64,000 nt of DNA, taken from an uncultured Flavobacteriales bacterium (GTDB taxonomy: Bacteria; Bacteroidota; Bacteroidia; Flavobacteriales_D; Sanyastnellaceae). The stretch is from NCBI GenBank assembly GCA_938084585.1, contig CALKFF010000029.1, forward strand, positions 1 through 64,000, read 5' to 3'. A program made the position numbers and the translations under genes. Below are positions 5,210 to 48,476 of this stretch, in pieces. How positions within the stretch are numbered: position 1 is the stretch's first letter; every line of letters begins with the position of its first letter. Below the pieces are notes generated by a model. The model saw only the letters and a program-made list of their open reading frames with translations. It did not search any database and was not told the DNA's origin.

Positions 5210-7554
<2,345 letters not shown>

Positions 7555-38321: not shown

Positions 38322-39581
38322 ATGCGTAGCCTGCCCTTGACTTTGGCGCAAACAGGACGATCGTTGGTCGTCCTGTTGTGTTTGACTGCGACCTTCGCTT
38401 CGTGCGGAGACACCAACCCCACCGATCCCATGAAACACCTCTCGGCCGCTGAACTTTTGGGCAACCCCGACTGCCCCGCCATCTCGTACGGGGGGTACAG
38501 AGAGACGAGCCGTGCGGAACAACCCACCCTCGACCAGTTGAAAGAGGACATGCGCATCCTGCACGCCATGGGCATTCGGTTCTTGCGCACCTACAACGTC
38601 CAACTGCCCCACGCTTCCAACGTGGTTCAGGCCATCGCCGAGTTGAAGCTAGAGGACCCGACCTTCGAGATGTACGTGATGCTCGGGGCTTGGATCGATT
38701 GTGTGGGCGCGTGGACGGGCACCCCCAACCACGCAGAGCAAGATTACGAAGCCAACGAGGCGGAGATTGACCGGGCGGTGGCGCTGGCCCAAGCCCACCC
38801 CGACATCGTCAAGGTGTTGGCCGTCGGCAACGAAGCCATGGTGCACTGGGCTGCTTCGTACTTCGTGGCGCCTGGGGTCATCCTGCATTGGGTGAACCAC
38901 CTCCAGGACCTGAAAGCCGAGGGCGAACTCCCCAGCGACTTGTGGGTCACCAGTTCAGACAACTTCGCCTCTTGGGGCGGCGGCGGGCCGGAGTACCACA
39001 ACGCCGACCTCGACAGCCTCATCCAAGCCGTGGACTTCGTGTCCATGCACACTTACCCGTTCCACGACACCCACTACAACCCCACTTTCTGGAAGGGCGA
39101 AGGACTTGACCCCCACGACGTGGACGGCGCGATGGCGCGGGCCGTGGCGTACAGCCAAAACCAATACGCCCAAGTGGTGAACTACGTGCGGCGCATCGAC
39201 GCCGACAAGCCTGTCCACATTGGTGAGACCGGCTGGGCGAGCGTGTCCGACGGCTTTTACGGGCCGGAAGGGTCTCGGGCCGCCGACGAGTACAAGCAGG
39301 CCCTGTTCCACCAAGGGATGCGCGACTGGACGCAATCCGAGGGCATCAGCTGCTTTTACTTCGAGGCGTTTGACGAGCCTTGGAAGAGCGCGGCGAACCC
39401 CACCGACTCTGAGAACCACTTTGGGCTGTTCACCCGCGACGGCGAAGCGAAGTACGCGCTTTGGCCCCTCGTGAAGCAGGGGGTGTTCGAGGGCCTCACC
39501 CGCGACGGCCACCCCATCAAGCCCACCTATTCTGGCGAGCGCGACTTGCTCGACCGCCATGTTTTGAACCCAGCCCATTGA
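38322..39581 (+). CDS. GH17-family beta-1,3-glucanase-like lipoprotein
   Basis: 419 residues. Lipoprotein signal (LVVLLCLTATFASC, Cys28). The barrel begins AISYGGYR, and the catalytic pair is E171 in VGNEAMV (acid/base) and E302 in IGETGWAS (nucleophile), with the GH17 C-terminal FYFEAFDEPWK. GH17 enzymes cut or rearrange beta-1,3-glucans such as laminarin. Being a lipoprotein it should act in the periplasm or at the cell surface. Spacing to the next gene is two bases. Confidence 0.85.
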   Translation: MRSLPLTLAQTGRSLVVLLCLTATFASCGDTNPTDPMKHLSAAELLGNPDCPAISYGGYRETSRAEQPTLDQLKEDMRILHAMGIRFLRTYNVQLPHASNVVQAIAELKLEDPTFEMYVMLGAWIDCVGAWTGTPNHAEQDYEANEAEIDRAVALAQAHPDIVKVLAVGNEAMVHWAASYFVAPGVILHWVNHLQDLKAEGELPSDLWVTSSDNFASWGGGGPEYHNADLDSLIQAVDFVSMHTYPFHDTHYNPTFWKGEGLDPHDVDGAMARAVAYSQNQYAQVVNYVRRIDADKPVHIGETGWASVSDGFYGPEGSRAADEYKQALFHQGMRDWTQSEGISCFYFEAFDEPWKSAANPTDSENHFGLFTRDGEAKYALWPLVKQGVFEGLTRDGHPIKPTYSGERDLLDRHVLNPAH

Positions 39582-39583
39582 CC

Positions 39584-42061
39584 ATGAAACACCTTCCTTT
39601 GATGCTTGCCTTCTTGGCCACTGTGCTGCTGGGCACCTCCTGCGGATCCACCACGGAAGCCCGACGCGTTTGGGTCGAGGAAGGGCAGCTCGTCACGGAC
39701 GCCGGTCCACTCTTCATGTACGGCGTGTGTTACCACCCGGTGCCGGTGGGAGAATCCGAGCGCAGCTTTGAGACGTTGACCCAGGATTTGGCCTTGATGA
39801 AAGACATGGGCATCAACACGCTGCGCGTGTACGAACCCATCGCCTCCAAGGAAGTGCTTGATGAAATCAGCGCAGCTGGCCTCTCGGTCATTGTTGGGCT
39901 GGGGTACAACCAAGGCGGCGTCTACGACTTGCAGTCCGGGACGTACCTCGACTACGTGAAGCGGTTCAAGTCGCATCCGGCCATCCTGCTTTGGGAATTG
40001 GGCAACGAGTACAACTTCCACCCTGAGTGGTTCGGCGGATCGTTGGACGTGTGGTACGAGACCCTTCGCGAGGTGGCCGCGGCCATCCAAGCGGAGGACC
40101 CCAACCACCCTGTGTCCACGGCGCACGGCGAGTTGCCAGACCAGGCGCTCATCGACGAGCTGACCGACATCGACGTTTGGGGCATGAACGTGTACCGCTG
40201 GGATGTGTCTTACACCGCCGCCTTGGACTTTGCCAAGCGCAGTGACAAGCCCGTGTATTTCTCTGAAATTGGGGCGGACAGCTACATGACGACTGCGGCG
40301 CTGGGCTACGACCAAGGCCACAATCCAAGGGCGCAAGCCGACGCCACCCGCAACTTGCTCGAGCCCCTGCTCTCGGACTCGGTCCCCAGCGCGGGAGCGG
40401 TGTTGTTTTCCTTCACCGACGGTTGGTGGAAGGCAGGGAACCCCAATGAGCAGGACCCCGGGGGCATGGCCCCTGCAAGCAGCGGCGTCCCCTACGACAG
40501 CGACGCCAATGAAGAGCACTGGGGCTTGGTGGACATCCACCGCAACCCGAAGGACGCCTACCACGTGGTGAAGTCCCTGTTTCAATCGCATCAAGCCTCT
40601 GACATGAAGGAGAAGACGTTCCGGAAGACCGTGTTTGAGACCTCCCGCCGAGGAGGCCGCTTCCACGAGGTCCCTCAAGCCACTGTGGACGGTTGGGAGA
40701 ACCCCCAATCTGAGGTGTTGCACGTGAAGGTGAATGCGCAGGACAAAAGACAAACGATCGAAGGCTTTGGCGGGTCCTTCACGGACGCCTCGGCCTACCT
40801 CGTGCACCAGTTGAGCGCACCCCAACGCGACAGCATCCTCAAGGCCTACTTCGCCGAGGAGGGCGCCAATTACAGCCTCACCCGGACGCACATGAATTCG
40901 TGCGATTTCTCCCGGTTCCACTACAGCTACGCCGAAGTGGAAGGAGACCTGGAGTTGGAGCACTTCAACATGGACCAGGACCGAGAATTCCTGTTCCCGA
41001 TGATCCGGGCAGCCCAAGACATCTCCAAAGACGGTTTCCAACTCATTGCCTCACCTTGGACGGCTCCGCCGTGGATGAAAGACAACAACAACTGGGTCGG
41101 CGGGCGCCTGCGCAAGGACATGCAACCCACGTGGGCCAACTTCTTCGTCAAGTACGCCAAGGAGTGCTTGGACGAGGGGCTTCCCTTGTGGGGCTTCACC
41201 GTGGAAAACGAGCCCCACGGCAACGGCGACAACTGGGAAAGCATGCTCTACTCGCCCGACGAGATGACGGAATTCGTGAAAGAGCACCTCGGCCCAGCGC
41301 TGGAAACGAACGGCTTGGGGCACTTGAACATCTTGGGCTACGACCAAAACCGCGCGGGACTGGACGAGTGGACGGCTTCCATGTACCGCGACGAGGAAAG
41401 CGCGAAGTACTTCGCCGGGACCGCCATCCACTGGTACGAAAGCACGTACGACGTCTTCGCGGACGACCTCGACCGGGCACACGACGCGGCTCCCGACAAG
41501 CTCCTCATCGAAACCGAAGGGTGCATCGATGCGGAGGTGCCGGTTTGGCAAGACGACGACTGGTACTGGCAAAAGGAAGCCACCGACTGGGGCTTCACTT
41601 GGCGCGAAGAGGAAAAGAAATACTTGCACCCCAAGTACTCCCCGGTTCACCGCTACGCCCGGGACATCATCGGGTGCTTGAACCACTGGGTGCACGGCTG
41701 GGTCGACTGGAACATGGTGTTGGACAGGCAGGGCGGCCCCAACTGGTTTGAAAACTGGTGCATCGCCCCGGTCATCGTCGACCCGGAACAAGACGAGGTG
41801 TACTTCACGCCGCTCTACGACGTGATGTGCCACTTCAGCAAGTTCATCCGCCCTGGCGCCACCGTGCTCGGCAGCGCATGTCCGGATGAAGACGTGATGG
41901 CCGTGGCCACCTCCAACGAAGACGGCTCCTACACCCTCGTGTGCTTCAACCAAGGCGACACCCCTCGGTCTGTGCACATCGAAGGCTTGCCCACCGACGT
42001 CCGGATTGAGCTGGATGCGCAAGCCCTCCAAACGATTGTCCTCACCCCTTACGACCTCTAA
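39584..42061 (+). CDS. Two-domain glycosidase lipoprotein: clan GH-A barrel fused to GH30
   Basis: 825 residues from the ATG at 39584. Lipoprotein signal ending TVLLGTSC (Cys20). Domain 1 (about 28-335) is a TIM barrel of GH2/GH5 type with E142 in WELGNEYN and E228 in VYFSEIGADS, the expected acid/base and nucleophile. Domain 2 (about 385-825) is GH30: TIEGFGGSFTDASAY, SPWTAPPWMKD, acid/base E543 in TVENEPHG, probable nucleophile E645 in IETEGC, and the C-terminal beta sandwich (SNEDGSYTLVCFNQ). GH30 members include beta-1,6-glucanases and glucosylceramidases; the glucan context suggests removal of beta-1,6 branches. In-frame codons before 39584 lie in the previous gene. Confidence 0.82.
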   Translation: MKHLPLMLAFLATVLLGTSCGSTTEARRVWVEEGQLVTDAGPLFMYGVCYHPVPVGESERSFETLTQDLALMKDMGINTLRVYEPIASKEVLDEISAAGLSVIVGLGYNQGGVYDLQSGTYLDYVKRFKSHPAILLWELGNEYNFHPEWFGGSLDVWYETLREVAAAIQAEDPNHPVSTAHGELPDQALIDELTDIDVWGMNVYRWDVSYTAALDFAKRSDKPVYFSEIGADSYMTTAALGYDQGHNPRAQADATRNLLEPLLSDSVPSAGAVLFSFTDGWWKAGNPNEQDPGGMAPASSGVPYDSDANEEHWGLVDIHRNPKDAYHVVKSLFQSHQASDMKEKTFRKTVFETSRRGGRFHEVPQATVDGWENPQSEVLHVKVNAQDKRQTIEGFGGSFTDASAYLVHQLSAPQRDSILKAYFAEEGANYSLTRTHMNSCDFSRFHYSYAEVEGDLELEHFNMDQDREFLFPMIRAAQDISKDGFQLIASPWTAPPWMKDNNNWVGGRLRKDMQPTWANFFVKYAKECLDEGLPLWGFTVENEPHGNGDNWESMLYSPDEMTEFVKEHLGPALETNGLGHLNILGYDQNRAGLDEWTASMYRDEESAKYFAGTAIHWYESTYDVFADDLDRAHDAAPDKLLIETEGCIDAEVPVWQDDDWYWQKEATDWGFTWREEEKKYLHPKYSPVHRYARDIIGCLNHWVHGWVDWNMVLDRQGGPNWFENWCIAPVIVDPEQDEVYFTPLYDVMCHFSKFIRPGATVLGSACPDEDVMAVATSNEDGSYTLVCFNQGDTPRSVHIEGLPTDVRIELDAQALQTIVLTPYDL

Positions 42062-42073
42062 ACCTCGCGGATC

Positions 42074-43510
42074 ATGGACCCTTCGACCTCACCCCCCACC
42101 TCGACCGTTTCCATGGGCCAAAAAGTGGCCTTCGGATTTGGCATGTTGGCCAACCAGATGTTCCCGGCTGCCTTGGGCGTGTTCATCATTGTGCTGGTGC
42201 AAGACCTCGGGTTTGCCGCCCTGCTTTGGGGCATCATCCAGTTTTTGCCCCGCGTATTCGACGCCATCACCGACCCGGTCATGGGGTTCATCTCCGACAA
42301 CACCCGCTCCAAATGGGGGCGACGCCGGCAGTATGTGTTCATTGGCGCCCTCCTGATGGGCGTCGCCTACATCGCCATGTGGCAACTCCACAAGGGCGAC
42401 GGGGTCACGTACAACTTCATTTACTTCCTCAGTTGGTCGCTCGTCTTCTACCTCGGGCTGACCATCTTCAGCGTCCCCTACGTGGCCATGGGCTACGAGA
42501 TCAGCGAGGACTTCCACGAGCGGACGCAAATCATGGCCGTCGCCCAGTTCATCGGACAATGGGCCTGGGTCATCGCGCCTTGGTTCTGGGTCATCCTCTA
42601 CGACCCCAGTTGGTTCCCAGAAGGCGCCGACGCCGGGGTCCGCGAACTCTCCATCTGGGTCGCCATCCCTTGCACGCTGTTTGCCATGGTGCCGGCGTTG
42701 TTCCTCAAGAGCAAGTCGACTGTGGACCGGACCGACTTCTCCCCCATCAACGTGTCCGCCGTGTTGGGCAGCGTGGGGAAGATTTTCGTGTCGGCGTTTG
42801 AAGCCTTCCGAATCAAGCAGTTCCGCCAAATCGCAGGGGCGACATTCTTGATTTTCAACTCCTTCAACGTCATCGCGGCCTTCACGTTTTTGATCATCGT
42901 GCATTACATGTTCAACAGCGACCCTGCCAGCGCCGGCACCTGGCCAGCCATGCACGGCTCGGTGGGCGCCTTGATCACCACCTTCCTGGTCATCCCTGTG
43001 GTGACGTTCATGTCCAAGAAGTTGGGCAAGAAACGGGCCTTCATGGCGTGCCAGTTCATCTCGATCGTGGGCTACGTGCTGTTTTGGTTCCTCTTCATCC
43101 CGGGCAAGCCGTACCTGTTCCTGTTCGCCTTGCCGTTCCACTCGTTTGGCATCGGCAGCTTGTTCACCATCATGATGAGCATGACGGCGGACGTGTGCGA
43201 TTTGGACGAGCTCCAAACCGGCAAGCGCCGCGAAGGCGTGCTCGGTGCGGTGTACTGGTGGATGGTGAAGCTTGGCTTCGGTGTGGCCGCCCTCTTGAGC
43301 GGGGCCATCCTGTCCTTCGTGGGCTTCGACGCGGACAACGTCACCGAGTCGGCCGTCACAGGCATGCGGGCGTTCTACTCCCTCCTGCCCATCGCCGGCG
43401 TCATTGGCGCCTTGCTCATCATGAAGAACTACGACATCACCGAGGAAAGCGCCGCAAAGTTGAAGGAAGAACTCCTCCAAAAGCGCGCTGAGATCGCCCA
43501 ACAAGCCTGA
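42074..43510 (+). CDS. GPH-family glycoside:cation symporter (MelB-like)
   Basis: 478 residues, twelve membrane helices. The family hallmark is in the first loop: VFDAITDPVMGFISDNTRSKWGRRR (residues 62-85), broken here only by its own length. Further marks are FSVPYVAMGYEIS and the C-terminal DVCDLDELQTGKRREGVLGAVYWW. These inner-membrane carriers bring in disaccharides or oligosaccharides with Na+ or H+. Set in the glucan operon between the exported glycosidases and the cytoplasmic GH17, it should carry laminari-oligosaccharides or gentiobiose-type sugars (inference). Confidence 0.88.
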   Translation: MDPSTSPPTSTVSMGQKVAFGFGMLANQMFPAALGVFIIVLVQDLGFAALLWGIIQFLPRVFDAITDPVMGFISDNTRSKWGRRRQYVFIGALLMGVAYIAMWQLHKGDGVTYNFIYFLSWSLVFYLGLTIFSVPYVAMGYEISEDFHERTQIMAVAQFIGQWAWVIAPWFWVILYDPSWFPEGADAGVRELSIWVAIPCTLFAMVPALFLKSKSTVDRTDFSPINVSAVLGSVGKIFVSAFEAFRIKQFRQIAGATFLIFNSFNVIAAFTFLIIVHYMFNSDPASAGTWPAMHGSVGALITTFLVIPVVTFMSKKLGKKRAFMACQFISIVGYVLFWFLFIPGKPYLFLFALPFHSFGIGSLFTIMMSMTADVCDLDELQTGKRREGVLGAVYWWMVKLGFGVAALLSGAILSFVGFDADNVTESAVTGMRAFYSLLPIAGVIGALLIMKNYDITEESAAKLKEELLQKRAEIAQQA

Positions 43511-43512
43511 CC

Positions 43513-44412
43513 ATGAAACTGATGAACATGTCGTACAGGGCCGACAAGGTCCTGTCGCTGGCCGGAAACGGCCCCAACCGTGAAGACCGCGCGGAGCTCC
43601 AAAAGCAATGCGCGTCCTTGGTGGAAGACAAGATGCACGGCATCTGCTTCAGTCCGTACGAAGGCGACCAGCAACCGGGGGATGCCTTCACAGAAGCGCA
43701 AGTGCGGCGCAAGCTTGAGCTGCTCCAGCCCCACACGAAGTGGATCCGCATTTTCTCCTGCACCGACGGGAACGACATGATTCCAAAGCTCGCCCGTGAG
43801 TATGGATTCAAAACCCTCGTCGGCGCTTGGCTCGGTGAAGAAAAGGACAAGAACGAGGAGGAAATGACGCGCCTCGTGGAATTGGCCCAAGCCGGGTTCG
43901 TGGACGTGGCGGCCGTCGGCAACGAAGTGCTTTACCGCGAGGAAATGGCCGAGGCCGAGCTCATCGCATGCATCGACCGCGTGCGAAACGCCCTCCCAGA
44001 CGTGCCGGTGGGTTACGTCGACGCGTACTACGAATTCAGCGACCGTCCCGCGTTGGCGCAGGCGTGCGATGTGATTTTGGCCAACTGCTACCCCTACTGG
44101 GAAGGCTGCCACATGGACTACTCTCTGCTCTACATGAAGCAGATGTACTATCAGGTGAAGCAAGCGCAGCCCGACAAAAAGATCATCATCACCGAAACGG
44201 GCTGGCCCAGCGAGGGCGAGGCTTTGGGCGGAGCTGAACCCAGCTACGAGAACGCTCTGAAATACTTCATCAACGCCCAAAGGTGGGCCCGCAAAGAGGA
44301 CATCGACATGTTCTACTTCGCGGCGTTCGACGAGGCGTGGAAGGTCGGCACGGAAGGCAGCGTGGGCGCATTCTGGGGCCTCTGGGACAAAGACGAGAAG
44401 CGGAAGTTCTGA
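43513..44412 (+). CDS. Cytoplasmic GH17-family beta-1,3-glucan hydrolase or transglycosidase
   Basis: 299 residues, no signal peptide. GH17 motifs are clear: ICFSPYEG, IRIFSCTDGND, VGNEVLYR (E138, acid/base) and IIITETGWPSEGEA (E228, nucleophile), then FYFAAFDEAWK. The length equals the bare catalytic barrel. Sharing an operon with a cytoplasmic phosphorylase suggests it trims imported beta-1,3-glucan chains or rearranges them into phosphorylase substrates. Last gene of the glucan unit; the 55-base gap after it contains the next promoter. Confidence 0.85.
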   Translation: MKLMNMSYRADKVLSLAGNGPNREDRAELQKQCASLVEDKMHGICFSPYEGDQQPGDAFTEAQVRRKLELLQPHTKWIRIFSCTDGNDMIPKLAREYGFKTLVGAWLGEEKDKNEEEMTRLVELAQAGFVDVAAVGNEVLYREEMAEAELIACIDRVRNALPDVPVGYVDAYYEFSDRPALAQACDVILANCYPYWEGCHMDYSLLYMKQMYYQVKQAQPDKKIIITETGWPSEGEALGGAEPSYENALKYFINAQRWARKEDIDMFYFAAFDEAWKVGTEGSVGAFWGLWDKDEKRKF

Positions 44413-44432: not shown

Positions 44433-44464
44433 TTTGCCCGGGGATAAGGCATTGCCTAGTTTGC
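44433..44464 (+). promoter_or_regulatory. Promoter of the lipid operon (TTTG-N20-TAGTTTGC)
   Basis: -33 TTTG at 44433-44436, spacer of 20 bases, -7 box TAGTTTGC at 44457-44464 (TAnnTTTG with the last base changed). The GTG start of the next gene is only three bases downstream, so the transcript is probably leaderless. Confidence 0.65.
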
Positions 44465-44467
44465 AGG

Positions 44468-45271
44468 GTGTCTCAACTGCGCTGGCTGGTCTTTGGTGTG
44501 CTCTTTTCTTTCGCCCTGCAGGCGGAAGCCAAGCACTTCATCCACATTCAGGAGGACGCGTTGGCGGATCAAAAGACCGCCGTGCTCATCCTGAACGGGT
44601 TTGGCGGCACGCGGAAAGGTTGCCAAGCGCAGATGGCGTTTTGGGCCGACCATGGCATGGACGTGTTCATCCCCGATGTCTTGCGCAGGTCGTCGCTGTC
44701 AGAGAGCTCTGACGCCCTTGAAGCTTTTGTGGAAGCGCAACACCTCGAGGACTACCGGGAGGTCAAGGCCATTTGCTACATCGCCGGGGCGTACCTGCTG
44801 CACACCCAACTCGAGGCGCATCCCATGGCCAACCTCACGCGCATCGTCTACGACCGGAGCCCGACGCAAGAGCGCGCCCCTCAAACGGCCATGGCACGCA
44901 TCCCCAAGCTGGGCATGCTGAAGCTGGGCAAGGTGCTGAGGGACTTGAGCGTGGCGACCTGGCCCGATGTGCCAAAATCGGATCGGCTCAAGAAGGGGCT
45001 CGCCATTGAAAACCGGGCCACGCCGCTGATGCGTTTTTTGCAAGAGGAGGCCGAGGCCATGGGGCCTTTGGTGTACGATTGGCAAGCCATCGACCCTACC
45101 GCCCACGACGCCTTCCACGTGGCCTTGGACCACGACATGATGTACGTGCGGTGGGACTTGCTCGGGGAACCGTTCCTGCACTTCTTCGAGCACGGGGTCT
45201 TTCCCGCGGATTTGCCGCGCGACCGCATCCACGACCGGCCGTTTGACCCCACGTACCCCTTGCCAGAATGA
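44468..45271 (+). CDS. Secreted protein of unknown function heading the lipid operon
   Basis: 267 residues from the GTG at 44468, the only start giving a full signal peptide (QLRWLVFGVLFSFALQAEA). AVLILNGFGGTRKGCQAQMAF looks like the first strand and oxyanion loop of an alpha/beta hydrolase, and FHVALDHDMMY and FEHGVFP supply histidines. However, the expected G-x-S-x-G elbow is absent: the matching place reads CYIAGAYLL. It may be inactive or act differently. Its stop overlaps the start of the YnbA-like gene by four bases, tying it to phospholipid work. Confidence 0.55.
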   Translation: MSQLRWLVFGVLFSFALQAEAKHFIHIQEDALADQKTAVLILNGFGGTRKGCQAQMAFWADHGMDVFIPDVLRRSSLSESSDALEAFVEAQHLEDYREVKAICYIAGAYLLHTQLEAHPMANLTRIVYDRSPTQERAPQTAMARIPKLGMLKLGKVLRDLSVATWPDVPKSDRLKKGLAIENRATPLMRFLQEEAEAMGPLVYDWQAIDPTAHDAFHVALDHDMMYVRWDLLGEPFLHFFEHGVFPADLPRDRIHDRPFDPTYPLPE

Positions 45272-45879
45272 AGGTGCCCACGACATACGATTTGAAGCCG
45301 GCCTTCCAGCGCATGCTTCTCCCCATGCTCGGCCGTTTGAAGCAGGCTGGGGTCACGCCCAACGCCTTGACATGGATGGCCATCTTGCTGTCCGGAGGGC
45401 TGGGGTACGCCTTCGTGCTCGGCCTGGGGCAACGCGGTTGGTTCTACACCGTGGCGGCCGGGCTGCTCCTGCGCATGGCCTTGAACGCCTTGGACGGCAT
45501 GATGGCTCGGCAATTCAGCATGACCTCGACGGCCGGGGCCGTCTTGAACGAACTCGGCGATGTCGTCAGCGACGCGCTGGTGATGTGGCCGCTGGCGTTG
45601 TTGCCAGGGGTTCACGCAGGCTGGGTTGGCGCGTTGCTTTGGATGTCGGCGGTGAACGAATACGCCGGCGTGCTGGGCGCCTCGGTGGGCGGAGAACGGC
45701 GGTACGAAGGCCCCATGGGCAAGAGCGACCGGACCCTCGTTTGGGGGGTGTTTTGTCTGCTCCTCGGCGCAGGTGTGCCCGTCGAAGGCCACGTCCAAAC
45801 TGGGGTGTGGGTCGTTTTGGTGGGATTGTGCTGGAGCACATTTCGACGCGTCCGCGCCATCCTCAATGAAACGCCATGA
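45268..45879 (+). CDS. YnbA-like CDP-alcohol phosphatidyltransferase
   Basis: 203 residues, about six hydrophobic segments, inner membrane. The family motif D-x2-D-G-x2-A-R-x8-G-x3-D-x3-D reads N73-A-L-D76-G-x2-A-R81-x8-G90-x3-N94-x3-D98, so the first and third acidic positions are Asn. As I recall, E. coli YnbA has the same Asn variants (ALNALDG, ILNE.GDV), so this is a subfamily trait. Members join CDP-diacylglycerol to an alcohol head group. The alcohol is unknown. It overlaps the genes on both sides by four bases. Confidence 0.75.
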   Translation: MKVPTTYDLKPAFQRMLLPMLGRLKQAGVTPNALTWMAILLSGGLGYAFVLGLGQRGWFYTVAAGLLLRMALNALDGMMARQFSMTSTAGAVLNELGDVVSDALVMWPLALLPGVHAGWVGALLWMSAVNEYAGVLGASVGGERRYEGPMGKSDRTLVWGVFCLLLGAGVPVEGHVQTGVWVVLVGLCWSTFRRVRAILNETP

Positions 45880-46838
45880 ACAAACTCATCGACCTCTGGG
45901 ACATCGCTGCCGAATTGCAATGGGTGATCTTCATCATCCTCTGCATCTTGGTCGCCTCCTCTGTGGCGTGGAACCTCTGGAACTTCCTCAAACCGGGCAA
46001 GCTCGTCCAAGAATTGCTCGTAAGGACCCGTTCGTGGTGGATCATGTGCGCGTGCTTCATCGTCACCACCTTGGCCCACCCCATTGTCACCCATGTGGGG
46101 TTGGCGTTCTTGAGCTTTGCGCTGTGTCGGGAGATGTATCCCTTGCTGAAGCTGGACGTTCGGGAGCGGAACGTCGTCTTGGTGTGCTACGGGGTCATCC
46201 CCATCCAATACACCCTCGCTTACTTGGGCATGACCACCCTGTTTTTGGCGTTCATTCCGGTGCTCATGTTCGTCTTCATTCCCTTCCTGCTTGTCGTGAA
46301 GGGTGAGACCCAAGGCATTGTGCGTTCCATTTCCCTGATGCCGTATTCGTTGGTGGCTTGGGTGTACGGCATGAGCCACTTGGCGCTGCTTTTTCAATTG
46401 CCCGACATCCCTGGATTCACAGCTGGGCCTCAGGGCCTGCTCTTGTACCTCATTTTCTTGGTCGGGATCAACGACGTGCTGCAATTCGCTTGGGGCAAAA
46501 CCCTGGGCAGGCGCGCCGTGCTTCCCAAGGTCAGCCCCAACAAAACGTGGGAAGGCCTCGTGGGTGGGGTGTTGTCCGTGAGCCTGATTGCGGTGGGGCT
46601 GCGCTTCTTGACGCCGCTCGAGCCGTGGCAAGCCGCCCTGACTGGCTTTTGTGTGGCCGTCATGGGCTTCATGGGCGACGCCATCGCCTCGGGCATCAAG
46701 CGCGACCTGGGCATCAAAAACTCCGGCAACGCCATCCCTGGCCACGGCGGGTATTTGGACCGCCTCGACGGGTTCTCCGCCGCCGCGGCGCCCTTCTTTC
46801 ATTTGGTGTACTTCTTCAGCGTCACGTCTGCCGCCTGA
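45876..46838 (+). CDS. CdsA-like phosphatidate cytidylyltransferase (YnbB-like)
   Basis: 320 residues, eight or so membrane helices. The C-terminal signature GDAIASGIKRDLGIKNSG and IPGHGGYLDRLDGF is that of CTP:phosphatidate cytidylyltransferases, with the preceding LPKVSPNKTWEG block. The enzyme makes CDP-diacylglycerol for the neighbouring phosphatidyltransferase. A second, housekeeping cdsA probably exists elsewhere (inference), since this copy is embedded in an accessory operon. It starts four bases inside the previous gene. Confidence 0.85.
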   Translation: MNKLIDLWDIAAELQWVIFIILCILVASSVAWNLWNFLKPGKLVQELLVRTRSWWIMCACFIVTTLAHPIVTHVGLAFLSFALCREMYPLLKLDVRERNVVLVCYGVIPIQYTLAYLGMTTLFLAFIPVLMFVFIPFLLVVKGETQGIVRSISLMPYSLVAWVYGMSHLALLFQLPDIPGFTAGPQGLLLYLIFLVGINDVLQFAWGKTLGRRAVLPKVSPNKTWEGLVGGVLSVSLIAVGLRFLTPLEPWQAALTGFCVAVMGFMGDAIASGIKRDLGIKNSGNAIPGHGGYLDRLDGFSAAAAPFFHLVYFFSVTSAA

Positions 46839-46847
46839 TCCCCTTTC

Positions 46848-47561
46848 ATGACGCACGGCCCCATCGATTCTGAGTTGTTCGACGCCCACGTCCCCAAGGG
46901 CCGTCAATGGCTGCTTTGGGTGCTGTACAAACTGATGTGGCGCACCTTCTTTGGGGTCATCATCGGCCTGCGGTACCATTGGAGCAAAACGCCTCACCCG
47001 CTGGGACCGGTCATCTACGTGGCCAACCACAACAGCCACCTCGACGGCATGTCGTTGATGACCATCGTCCCCTCCCACCGCATCCACCTCACCCACTCGG
47101 TCGCGGCGCAGGACTTTTTCGGCAATTCGGGGTTTCGAAGGTGGTCGATGAAGAACCTGGTCAACGCCGTGCTCATTTCCCGCAGCAAACGCGAGGCCGA
47201 CGTGGATCCCGTGCAGCTCTTGGACGCCATGATTCGGCAAGGACACAGCCTGATTCTCTTCCCAGAAGGCACAAGAGGCGTGCCAGGGGTGATGGCCGAC
47301 TTCAAGCGCGGGGTGGGGCATTTGGCCTCGCGGCACCCCGACGTCCCCGTCATCCCCGTCTACCTCGACGGGTTGTACCGCAACCTGCCCAAGGGCCGCT
47401 CCATCATTGTGCCGTTGGGCGGCACCCTGGTGATGGGGGACCCGGTGTACTTTCCTGAAGGCACTTCGGTCGACGACATCACAGAACAAACCCAAGCCGC
47501 CATCCACAACATGGCCGAGGAATTGCGTCAACAAAACCAAGTTCCCGACCATGGCCGCTGA
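46848..47561 (+). CDS. PlsC-like 1-acylglycerol-3-phosphate acyltransferase
   Basis: 237 residues. Acyltransferase block I is NHNSHLD (His61, Asp66), block III is FPEGTRG (about 140-146), and block IV is VPVIPVYLDGLY. One N-terminal membrane helix (about 22-42). It would make phosphatidate, the substrate of the CdsA-like enzyme next to it. Its 3' end overlaps the desaturase-like gene by 11 bases. Confidence 0.85.
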   Translation: MTHGPIDSELFDAHVPKGRQWLLWVLYKLMWRTFFGVIIGLRYHWSKTPHPLGPVIYVANHNSHLDGMSLMTIVPSHRIHLTHSVAAQDFFGNSGFRRWSMKNLVNAVLISRSKREADVDPVQLLDAMIRQGHSLILFPEGTRGVPGVMADFKRGVGHLASRHPDVPVIPVYLDGLYRNLPKGRSIIVPLGGTLVMGDPVYFPEGTSVDDITEQTQAAIHNMAEELRQQNQVPDHGR

Positions 47562-48366
47562 CCCCACCAGCATCGCGCCTCCCGGCAGGGACGCGCTGAG
47601 GTCGCCTGACCTTGCTTGGCCCACCGTGTTGTTGGCCACCAAGACGTTTAGCCTTTGGGTCGCTGTGGGCTGCCTGGCCGCACAAGACGTCTTGCCGCTC
47701 TGGGTGACGTGTCTGGCCAACTCGGTGCTGGCGTACATCTCCTTCACCCCACAACACGACGCGGTGCACGATTCCGTGTCCAAAGCCCACCCCTGGCTCA
47801 ACGGACTCGTGGGGCGAATCTGCGGCATTCCACTGTTTTCGCCGTTCCCCGCCTTTCGCAGGTTGCACCTGGCGCACCACAAACACACCAACGACCCGCA
47901 CCACGACCCTGACTTCTGGAGCGGCAAGGGACCGTGGTACTTGCTCCCACTTCGCTGGATGACCCAAGAATGGCGTTACTGGGTGGTGAGCGCCACGGTC
48001 GTCAAGGAAACGGTCAAGGCCCGCAAGCGCGAAGTCGGCATCACCTTGGTTGTGCTGTACGGCACGGCGCTGGCGTTGGCCCTGAACGGCCACGGATGGG
48101 CGGTCTTGTGGGCGTGGATTGTCCCTTCTCGGCTGGCCAACACCATGCTTGCCTTCCTCTTCGACTACCTCCCCCACAGGCCACATCAAGTCCCGCTGCA
48201 CGAGGACCCGTTCCAAGCCACCCGAAACATCGAAGGCCAAACGCTCGCCTTCTTCTTCTTGTCCCAGAATTACCACCAGGTGCACCACATCTTCCCCTCG
48301 GTGCCCTTCTACCGATACCTGCGCATTTGGAAGCGTCACCGCGGGTGGTTTGAATCCAAGGCTTGA
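47551..48366 (+). CDS. Membrane fatty-acid desaturase/hydroxylase-like diiron protein
   Basis: 271 residues with paired hydrophobic stretches. The three histidine boxes are H69-D-A-V-H73, H106-L-A-H109-H110 (and KHTND after it) and H242-Q-V-H245-H246, typical of membrane diiron desaturases and carotenoid ketolase/hydroxylase enzymes. In this operon a role on an acyl chain or lipid head group is likely. It could also belong to a carotene hydroxylase branch. Last gene of the operon, ending 8 bases before a terminator hairpin. Confidence 0.75.
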   Translation: MAADPTSIAPPGRDALRSPDLAWPTVLLATKTFSLWVAVGCLAAQDVLPLWVTCLANSVLAYISFTPQHDAVHDSVSKAHPWLNGLVGRICGIPLFSPFPAFRRLHLAHHKHTNDPHHDPDFWSGKGPWYLLPLRWMTQEWRYWVVSATVVKETVKARKREVGITLVVLYGTALALALNGHGWAVLWAWIVPSRLANTMLAFLFDYLPHRPHQVPLHEDPFQATRNIEGQTLAFFFLSQNYHQVHHIFPSVPFYRYLRIWKRHRGWFESKA

Positions 48367-48374
48367 ACGCAAAA

Positions 48375-48396
48375 AAGGCACCCGATTGGGTGCCTT
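48375..48396 (+). terminator. Terminator hairpin of the lipid operon
   Basis: Stem AAGGCACCC (48375-48383) / GGGTGCCTT (48388-48396), loop GATT, with an A run before and a T-rich CTTGCTTG after. It lies between the desaturase-like gene and convergent tRNA-Glu and could serve both. The stem sequence is shared with 31149-31174. Confidence 0.75.
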
Positions 48397-48404
48397 CTTG
48401 CTTG

Positions 48405-48476
48405 TAGCCCGTAGGGGATTTGAACCCCTGCTACCAGGATGAAAACCTGGCGTCCTAACCCCTAGACGAACGGGCC
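48405..48476 (-). tRNA. tRNA-Glu (anticodon UUC)
   Basis: 72 bases on the minus strand. The acceptor stem is GGCCCGT / ACGGGCT with discriminator A. The anticodon stem CCAGG/CCTGG encloses the loop TTTTCAT, giving anticodon TTC (complement of bases 48441-48443). The T arm is AGGGG-TTCAAAT-CCCCT. CCA is not encoded. A CTTG-N20-TATCTTTG promoter lies just upstream. The charged form feeds HemA as well as translation. Confidence 0.96.

Follow-up and report, generated by a model that had tools for sequence, protein, structure and literature searches.

A ynbAB-type cassette with an exported partner gene

The window analyzed here, a 64,000-nucleotide (nt) stretch of contig CALKFF010000029.1 (GCA_938084585.1) from an uncultured Flavobacteriales bacterium, contains five co-directional, closely packed open reading frames (ORFs) on the forward strand at positions 44468 to 48366. 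They encode, in order, an exported 267-amino-acid protein with a GTG start codon (44468..45271), which belongs to no curated family, has a predicted alpha/beta-hydrolase fold, and is referred to here as hyd; an orthologue of Escherichia coli YnbA with a CDP-alcohol phosphotransferase (CDP-AP) fold (45268..45879); an orthologue of E. coli YnbB, a CdsA-like CTP:phosphatidate cytidylyltransferase (45876..46838); a PlsC-like 1-acylglycerol-3-phosphate acyltransferase (46848..47561); and a diiron desaturase/hydroxylase-like protein (47551..48366). The ORFs are joined by overlaps of 4, 4, and 11 bp, the last between plsC and the desaturase-like gene, and by a single 9-bp gap. An initial annotation of this DNA had listed the same five products (secreted protein, CDP-alcohol phosphatidyltransferase, and CdsA-, PlsC-, and desaturase-like proteins), and all were confirmed in the window. 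However, it missed the two most interesting features of the locus, an Asn-variant active site in YnbA and the near-obligate association of the exported protein with ynbA.

YnbA has an altered CDP-alcohol phosphotransferase active site

The YnbA protein aligned with E. coli YnbA over nearly its full length (35% identity over 201 columns; E, 5e-35), as did YnbB with its E. coli counterpart (35% identity over 295 columns), so that the parallel with the E. coli ynbA-ynbB pair drawn in the initial annotation proved to be one of true orthology. YnbA matched CDP-OH_P_transf (PF01066) at 35.8 bits (cut-off, 22), and its AlphaFold2 model (predicted local distance difference test [pLDDT], 91.5) had the six-transmembrane-helix CDP-AP fold. 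The nearest solved folds and sequence profiles were those of phosphatidylinositol phosphate (PIP) synthases and the archaetidylinositol phosphate synthase AF2299; the model aligned with PIP synthase 5d92 over 189 residues (Z, 19.6; 2.9 Å) and with AF2299 4o6m over 186 residues (Z, 19.3; 2.5 Å).

The eight-residue CDP-AP signature, D1xxD2GxxAR...GxxxD3xxxD4, has been termed absolutely conserved (PMC4634129). In MtPgsA1 the signature aspartates are D68, D71, D89, and D93, of which D68, D71, and D89 hold Mg-1, D89 and D93 hold Mg-2, and D93 presumably acts as the base (PMC6506517). The corresponding residues of the window YnbA read N73xxD76GxxAR...G90xxxN94E95xxD98xxxD102, and in a profile alignment N73 and N94 fall at D1 and D3, with D76 and D98 at D2 and D4. 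YnbA thus retains D2 and D4 and lacks the full Asp signature.

The two substitutions were found throughout the clade. Asn occupies both D1 and D3 in 90 of 92 YnbA sequences of the family designated capA, the remaining two (L108 and L123) being unparsed but the same by eye; in both sequences of the family designated capB; and in 27 of the 28 new loci that a census of the order returned out of 39 genomes with a match, the 28th (L212) being incomplete because it is cut by a contig end. Eighty of the loci, the best 80 of 583 confirmed in a scan of species genomes, had been retrieved with NA[LI]DGM[ML]A or Y[DEA]GP[ML]GKSD as the search pattern and are therefore biased for Asn at D1, although neither pattern includes D3. 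The order loci are free of this bias, as are 14 sequences picked without a motif pattern (the window, six genomes of the phylum found by BLAST, E. coli K-12, four further capA sequences, and two capB sequences reached via YnbB), and all 14 have Asn at both positions. As controls, the other PF01066 proteins of the seven Bacteroidota genomes that carry the cassette were inspected, and 18 of 18 keep Asp at D1 and D3. No earlier report of these Asn substitutions was found in the open-access literature.

The rest of the active site is strongly conserved. Across 40 YnbA sequences there is no variation at D2, D4, the signature Gly and Ala, E95, D102, or the acceptor arginines, and E95 follows N94 in every parsed capA sequence. 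The arginines, R155 and R194, align with R155 and R195 of MtPIPS, which have been proposed to bind the phosphate of the acceptor (PMC4634129). R94 of MtPgsA1, next to D4, is described as crucial for activity and conserved in enzymes that use inositol phosphate (PMC6506517); at the equivalent position the 90 parsed capA sequences all have V or I, the set enlarged by the order loci has V, I, or L, and the two capB sequences have R. YnbA thus resembles MtPgsA1, RsPIPS, and Bacteroides BT_1523 in predicted fold, in D2 and D4, and in the two phosphate-binding arginines, but differs in the Asn residues at D1 and D3, in the absence of R94, and in falling short of the model cut-offs. As judged from sequence and predicted structure, YnbA appears to have kept the fold, the base, and the phosphate pocket and to have changed the metal site, and because the R94 equivalent is absent, an inositol acceptor is unlikely.

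A second, distant YnbA type with about 20% identity, also paired with ynbB and plsC, was observed at two loci (L042, 7354-9636; L047, 6725-8897). It has the same two Asn residues, Ile in place of the signature Arg, and Arg at the R94 position.

YnbA has been labelled a predicted diacylglycerol choline-phosphotransferase (PMC12871917). A study of inositol lipids in Bacteroidetes employed the PHI-BLAST pattern DX2DGX2AR...GX3DX3D (PMC9246714), and signature-based surveys of this kind would skip YnbA because the pattern demands Asp at D1 and D3.

YnbB and the PlsC-like protein

YnbB matched CTP_transf_1 (PF01148) at 170.9 bits (cut-off, 24). The C-terminal signature of CdsA proteins contains the pair K-D (PROSITE pattern). 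In the corresponding region of YnbB (46695-46775) this pair reads K-N in 6 of 73 sequences, those of the window and of the five relatives closest to it, and the second position is D in the other 67 of 73. The PlsC-like protein scored 76.9 bits against Acyltransferase (PF01553; cut-off, 23) and has both the HX4D motif, as NHNSHLD, and FPEGTR. Carriage of YnbB by phages was considered and rejected, as none of the 15 phage records that matched covered 80% of the protein, and PADLOC assigned none of the five proteins of the run to a defence-system family.

The exported protein is a near-obligate partner of YnbA

No Pfam or NCBIfam family matched hyd above its cut-off, the best being DLH at 12.5 bits compared to a cut-off of 21, and no earlier report of the protein was found in the open-access literature. 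Its AlphaFold2 model (pLDDT, 92) nevertheless has a predicted alpha/beta-hydrolase fold (best Foldseek E, 4.2e-8; best VIA Z, 14.9, with 200 residues aligned at 3.1 Å). The likeness to alpha/beta-hydrolase proteins such as BlEst2 and MGS-MChE2 (Z, about 14 to 15) does not extend to the GxSxG nucleophile elbow, which is replaced by x-Y-I-x-G in all 20 sequences aligned. In that alignment Y104-I105-x-G107 of hyd occupies the place of GxSxG, and the order of a strand (98-103) and then a helix (105-117) in the model would put Ile at the elbow itself. Other residues are invariant in the same 20 sequences, namely Y128-x-R130-S131-x-x-Q134-E135-R136-A137, H222, and D223. The N-termini resemble signal peptides, and in one genome (G317) a lipobox-like VSGC is present, as judged by eye. 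At the G317 locus (L036) a small multi-pass membrane protein that is DMT/EamA-like by eye, with no Pfam match at 0.001, is encoded between plsC and hyd (6876-7223, minus strand).

Within the order, 37 of 199 genomes were found to have hyd and 39 to have ynbA, and all 37 genomes with hyd are among those 39 (Fisher P = 3e-38, a value that ignores relatedness). The two genes lie within 100 bp of each other in 32 of the 37 genomes and within 2.1 kb in 34; in three they are on different contigs. Four congeners of the window genome lack both ynbA and hyd. Across 395 Bacteroidota genomes strong hyd matches were detected in three, all within the seven genomes with the cassette. Thus, hyd is a near-obligate, conserved partner of ynbA and no bystander.

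The possibility that hyd is the homologue of E. coli YnbC was rejected, as the two gave no meaningful alignment (E, 0.20). Their domain content differs, hyd lacks a nucleophile serine, and none of the seven Bacteroidota cassette genomes gave a match to the Methyltransf_20 domain that YnbC contains. The two genes did not occur together in any of the 80 scanned loci, and they look like alternative add-ons to the cassette.

Distribution and variants of the cassette

YnbA matches with E values of 2.9e-37 or lower were found in 7 of the 395 Bacteroidota genomes (next best, 6.1e-9), and these seven, with no others, had YnbB matches at 3.4e-127 or lower (next best, 3.4e-39). The genes ynbA, ynbB, and plsC lie in that order in all six of the other strong-match genomes, which argues that the five-gene run of the window did not arise by chance. 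Near ynbA in the 80 loci, some ynbB was present in 77, plsC in 59, ynbC in 32, ynbD in 30, and hyd in 17. A locus of Fluviicola chungangensis (L109) has the arrangement hyd-ynbA-ynbB-plsC. Judged by record titles, ynbA relatives that share its signature are present in Bacteroidota, Pseudomonadota, Gemmatimonadota, and Cyanobacteria.

The closest known system is the E. coli ynbABCD operon, in which the orthologous ynbA and ynbB are adjacent in the same order. The K-12 operon has no plsC, and the window differs further in lacking ynbC and ynbD and in adding hyd upstream and plsC and the desaturase-like gene downstream. Plasmid cassettes (Citrobacter, E. coli, Rhizobium, Pseudanabaena, and Bacteroides finegoldii) share a CDP-AP protein with the same two Asn residues, ynbB, and plsC, but ynbC- or ynbD-type genes were present in four of the six examined and hyd in none. 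One of them, on an E. coli IncF plasmid (L043, 7385-11525), is a ynbA-ynbB-plsC-ynbC cassette near a colicin M gene; its ynbA frame is present though outside the distributed gene table, and its ynbD match is short. Operons of the Chryseobacterium/Capnocytophaga type also have ynbA with an adjacent CdsA-like gene, but the CdsA-like protein is short. At a Chryseobacterium-type locus (L058, 9995-16447) these two are accompanied, in place of plsC and hyd, by genes for a patatin phospholipase, a short-chain dehydrogenase, YnbD, and YnbC.

The desaturase-like gene does not share this distribution. Its product matched FA_desaturase (PF00487) at 131.1 bits (cut-off, 29.7) but not the CrtR-type carotene hydroxylase model (118.6 bits versus a cut-off of 475), and a search for sequence relatives in the PDB gave no match. 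The gene was absent from all 80 cassette loci scanned, and relatives were found in 5 of the 199 order genomes. The four other than the window genome encode proteins with 42 to 65% identity, and all four genomes have ynbA, on other contigs; in one (G560) the neighbors are a second PF00487 protein and a regulator of the TetR type, and in another (G585) the neighbor is a PF01553 acyltransferase. The profile was built from one sequence, so that distant relatives could be missed in these counts. The gene is best read as a local recruit outside the conserved cassette, and its placement within the pathway by the initial annotation was not supported.

Housekeeping phospholipid genes

The window genome, which is 78% complete, encodes a second CdsA-like protein adjoining Psd on another contig, C11 (256.9 bits against the Psd model; cut-off, 225). 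It also encodes three other PF01553 proteins and, on C27, a PssA-like protein (68.6 bits, under the cut-off of 107, with its best match to pssA). The cassette is therefore separate from the housekeeping phospholipid genes, as had been proposed, rather than being the ordinary route of a genome without other cdsA and pss/pgsA genes. In the window genome (G000) and in a 100%-complete genome (G041), the PssA-like protein and YnbA are the only PF01066 proteins, and no pgsA was seen.

Promoter and flanking sequences

The heptamer TAGTTTG (44457..44463, forward strand) ends 4 nt before the start codon of hyd, and we take it to be a Bacteroidota-type -7 element on the basis of the presumed consensus for that phylum. 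The initial annotation began the locus at 44433, which corresponds to a possible upstream TTTG element; coding begins at 44468. An in-frame TA-N(1-2)-TTTG-N(3-5)-start arrangement precedes 13 of 25 hyd genes (12 of 24 distinct genes, as L241 and L051 appear to be duplicates), whereas 200 shuffles gave 0.42 such genes on average and never more than 2 of 25. Because the arrangement recurs above the shuffles, the leaderless-type promoter of the initial annotation is supported. No sigma-70-type promoter was detected between 44300 and 48600, as should be the case if transcription relies on the Bacteroidota-type element.

A terminator-like stem-loop of nine pairs (48375..48396, forward strand) lies 3' of the last gene; it is weak alone, as eight such sites were found in the region and 4.6 were expected. 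A tRNA-Glu gene follows on the minus strand (48404-48476). Directly upstream of the run, positions 38322-44412 hold a likely cluster for the use of laminarin-type glucan, which encodes a pair of GH17 proteins, one protein that combines GH2-C-like with GH30 domains, and a sugar transporter of the MFS_2 family. A GH17 gene ends 55 bp before the run.

Possible function of the cassette

The initial annotation described the run as a whole path from acyl-glycerol-phosphate to a modified phospholipid. That description presumed an ordinary CDP-alcohol phosphotransferase, yet two of the four signature aspartates of YnbA are Asn. The explanation that we favor, with roughly even confidence for and against it, is that the cassette is a dedicated secondary phospholipid branch, beside the housekeeping phosphatidylserine/phosphatidylethanolamine route, which uses a phosphorylated head-group acceptor. 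We infer the individual reactions from what is known of each family. The PlsC-like protein would convert lysophosphatidate to phosphatidate, and YnbB would convert phosphatidate to CDP-diacylglycerol. YnbA would then pass the phosphatidyl moiety to a small acceptor that bears a phosphate (inositol phosphate being improbable), yielding a phosphatidyl-X-phosphate or related anionic lipid. On the periplasmic side, the exported, nucleophile-less hyd may bind or handle this lipid. Where a cassette has ynbC and ynbD instead, follow-up steps would fall to YnbC, which joins a hydrolase to a methyltransferase, and YnbD, which joins PAP2 to a dual-specificity phosphatase. The locally recruited desaturase may act on the acyl chains.

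Several observations weigh against this secondary-branch explanation. D1 and D3 are metal ligands in MtPgsA1, and because both are Asn in YnbA, normal two-metal catalysis is doubtful. YnbD, the phosphatase expected for a phosphatidyl-X-phosphate, is missing from the window version, and hyd has no assignable chemistry. In addition, a published account gives YnbB another job, in the synthesis of the glycolipid MPIase (PMC6362211, PMC7018664).

That account underlies the main rival explanation, which we consider improbable, in which the cassette makes an MPIase-like, pyrophosphate-linked glycolipid, a sugar-pyrophosphate-diacylglycerol that YnbB or YnbA would form from CDP-diacylglycerol and a sugar-1-phosphate. 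CdsA/YnbB has been reported to form N-acetylglucosamine (GlcNAc)-pyrophosphate-diacylglycerol from CDP-diacylglycerol and GlcNAc-1-phosphate, and overproduction of YnbB in E. coli raises MPIase (PMC6362211, PMC7018664, PMC10881803). The initial annotation, which described the product of the ynbAB pair as unknown, did not take this link of E. coli YnbB to MPIase into account. The presence of some ynbB near ynbA in nearly all of the 80 loci is consistent with this possibility, and a phosphate as the acceptor nucleophile could explain why YnbA has kept its phosphate-binding arginines and why its metal site has changed. However, the reaction in E. coli was credited to CdsA/YnbB, with partially purified CdsA8 (PMC6362211), an E. 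coli ynbB knockout is reported to have had no MPIase defect (PMC7018664), and in the neighborhoods read the conserved cassette includes no gene for sugar handling. Slightly less probable again is a related possibility, that the YnbA branch is a chemically distinct CDP-AP class that transfers phosphatidyl groups onto a phosphate, for example that of a sugar-1-phosphate, to give a pyrophosphate-linked lipid carried or displayed by hyd.

The loss of two metal-binding aspartates (27 of 28 order loci; 90 of 92 capA sequences) could alternatively mean that YnbA is dead as a transferase and serves as a scaffold, a sensor, or a CDP-diacylglycerol-binding partner of YnbB. This we regard as no more probable than the MPIase-like route, since invariance of D2, D4, the Gly and Ala residues, E95, D102, and the acceptor arginines in 40 sequences exceeds what a dead enzyme would seem to need. 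It is less probable still that YnbA does housekeeping work as the phosphatidylglycerophosphate synthase of lineages without pgsA. The two genomes in which only the PssA-like protein and YnbA represent PF01066 could be read in this way, but the other five cassette genomes hold three or four further PF01066 proteins, and in the one genome tested against the models (L177) a protein passes the PgsA cut-off (114.8 versus 109.1), whereas the window YnbA scores 13.3. Synthesis of phosphatidylinositol, as by the BT_1522-1526 cluster of Bacteroides thetaiotaomicron, seems very unlikely. Although PIP synthases and the archaetidylinositol phosphate synthase are the nearest folds and profiles, YnbA scores below the cut-offs of the NCBIfam PIP synthase (44.9 versus 170) and BT1523 (21.8 versus 350) models, myo-inositol phosphate synthase was found in two of the seven cassette genomes, and V, I, or L replaces the R94 that inositol phosphate use is stated to need (PMC6506517).

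If a pyrophosphate-linked lipid were the product, it would represent an overlooked lipid class extending from E. coli to Bacteroidota. With the secondary phospholipid branch, too, the product of the cassette may be a membrane lipid not yet described, because the active site is altered in YnbA, the central enzyme of its synthesis, and hyd would provide an exported handle on that product. A whole clade breaks the CDP-AP signature considered absolutely conserved, which raises the questions of acceptor choice and metal number in these enzymes.

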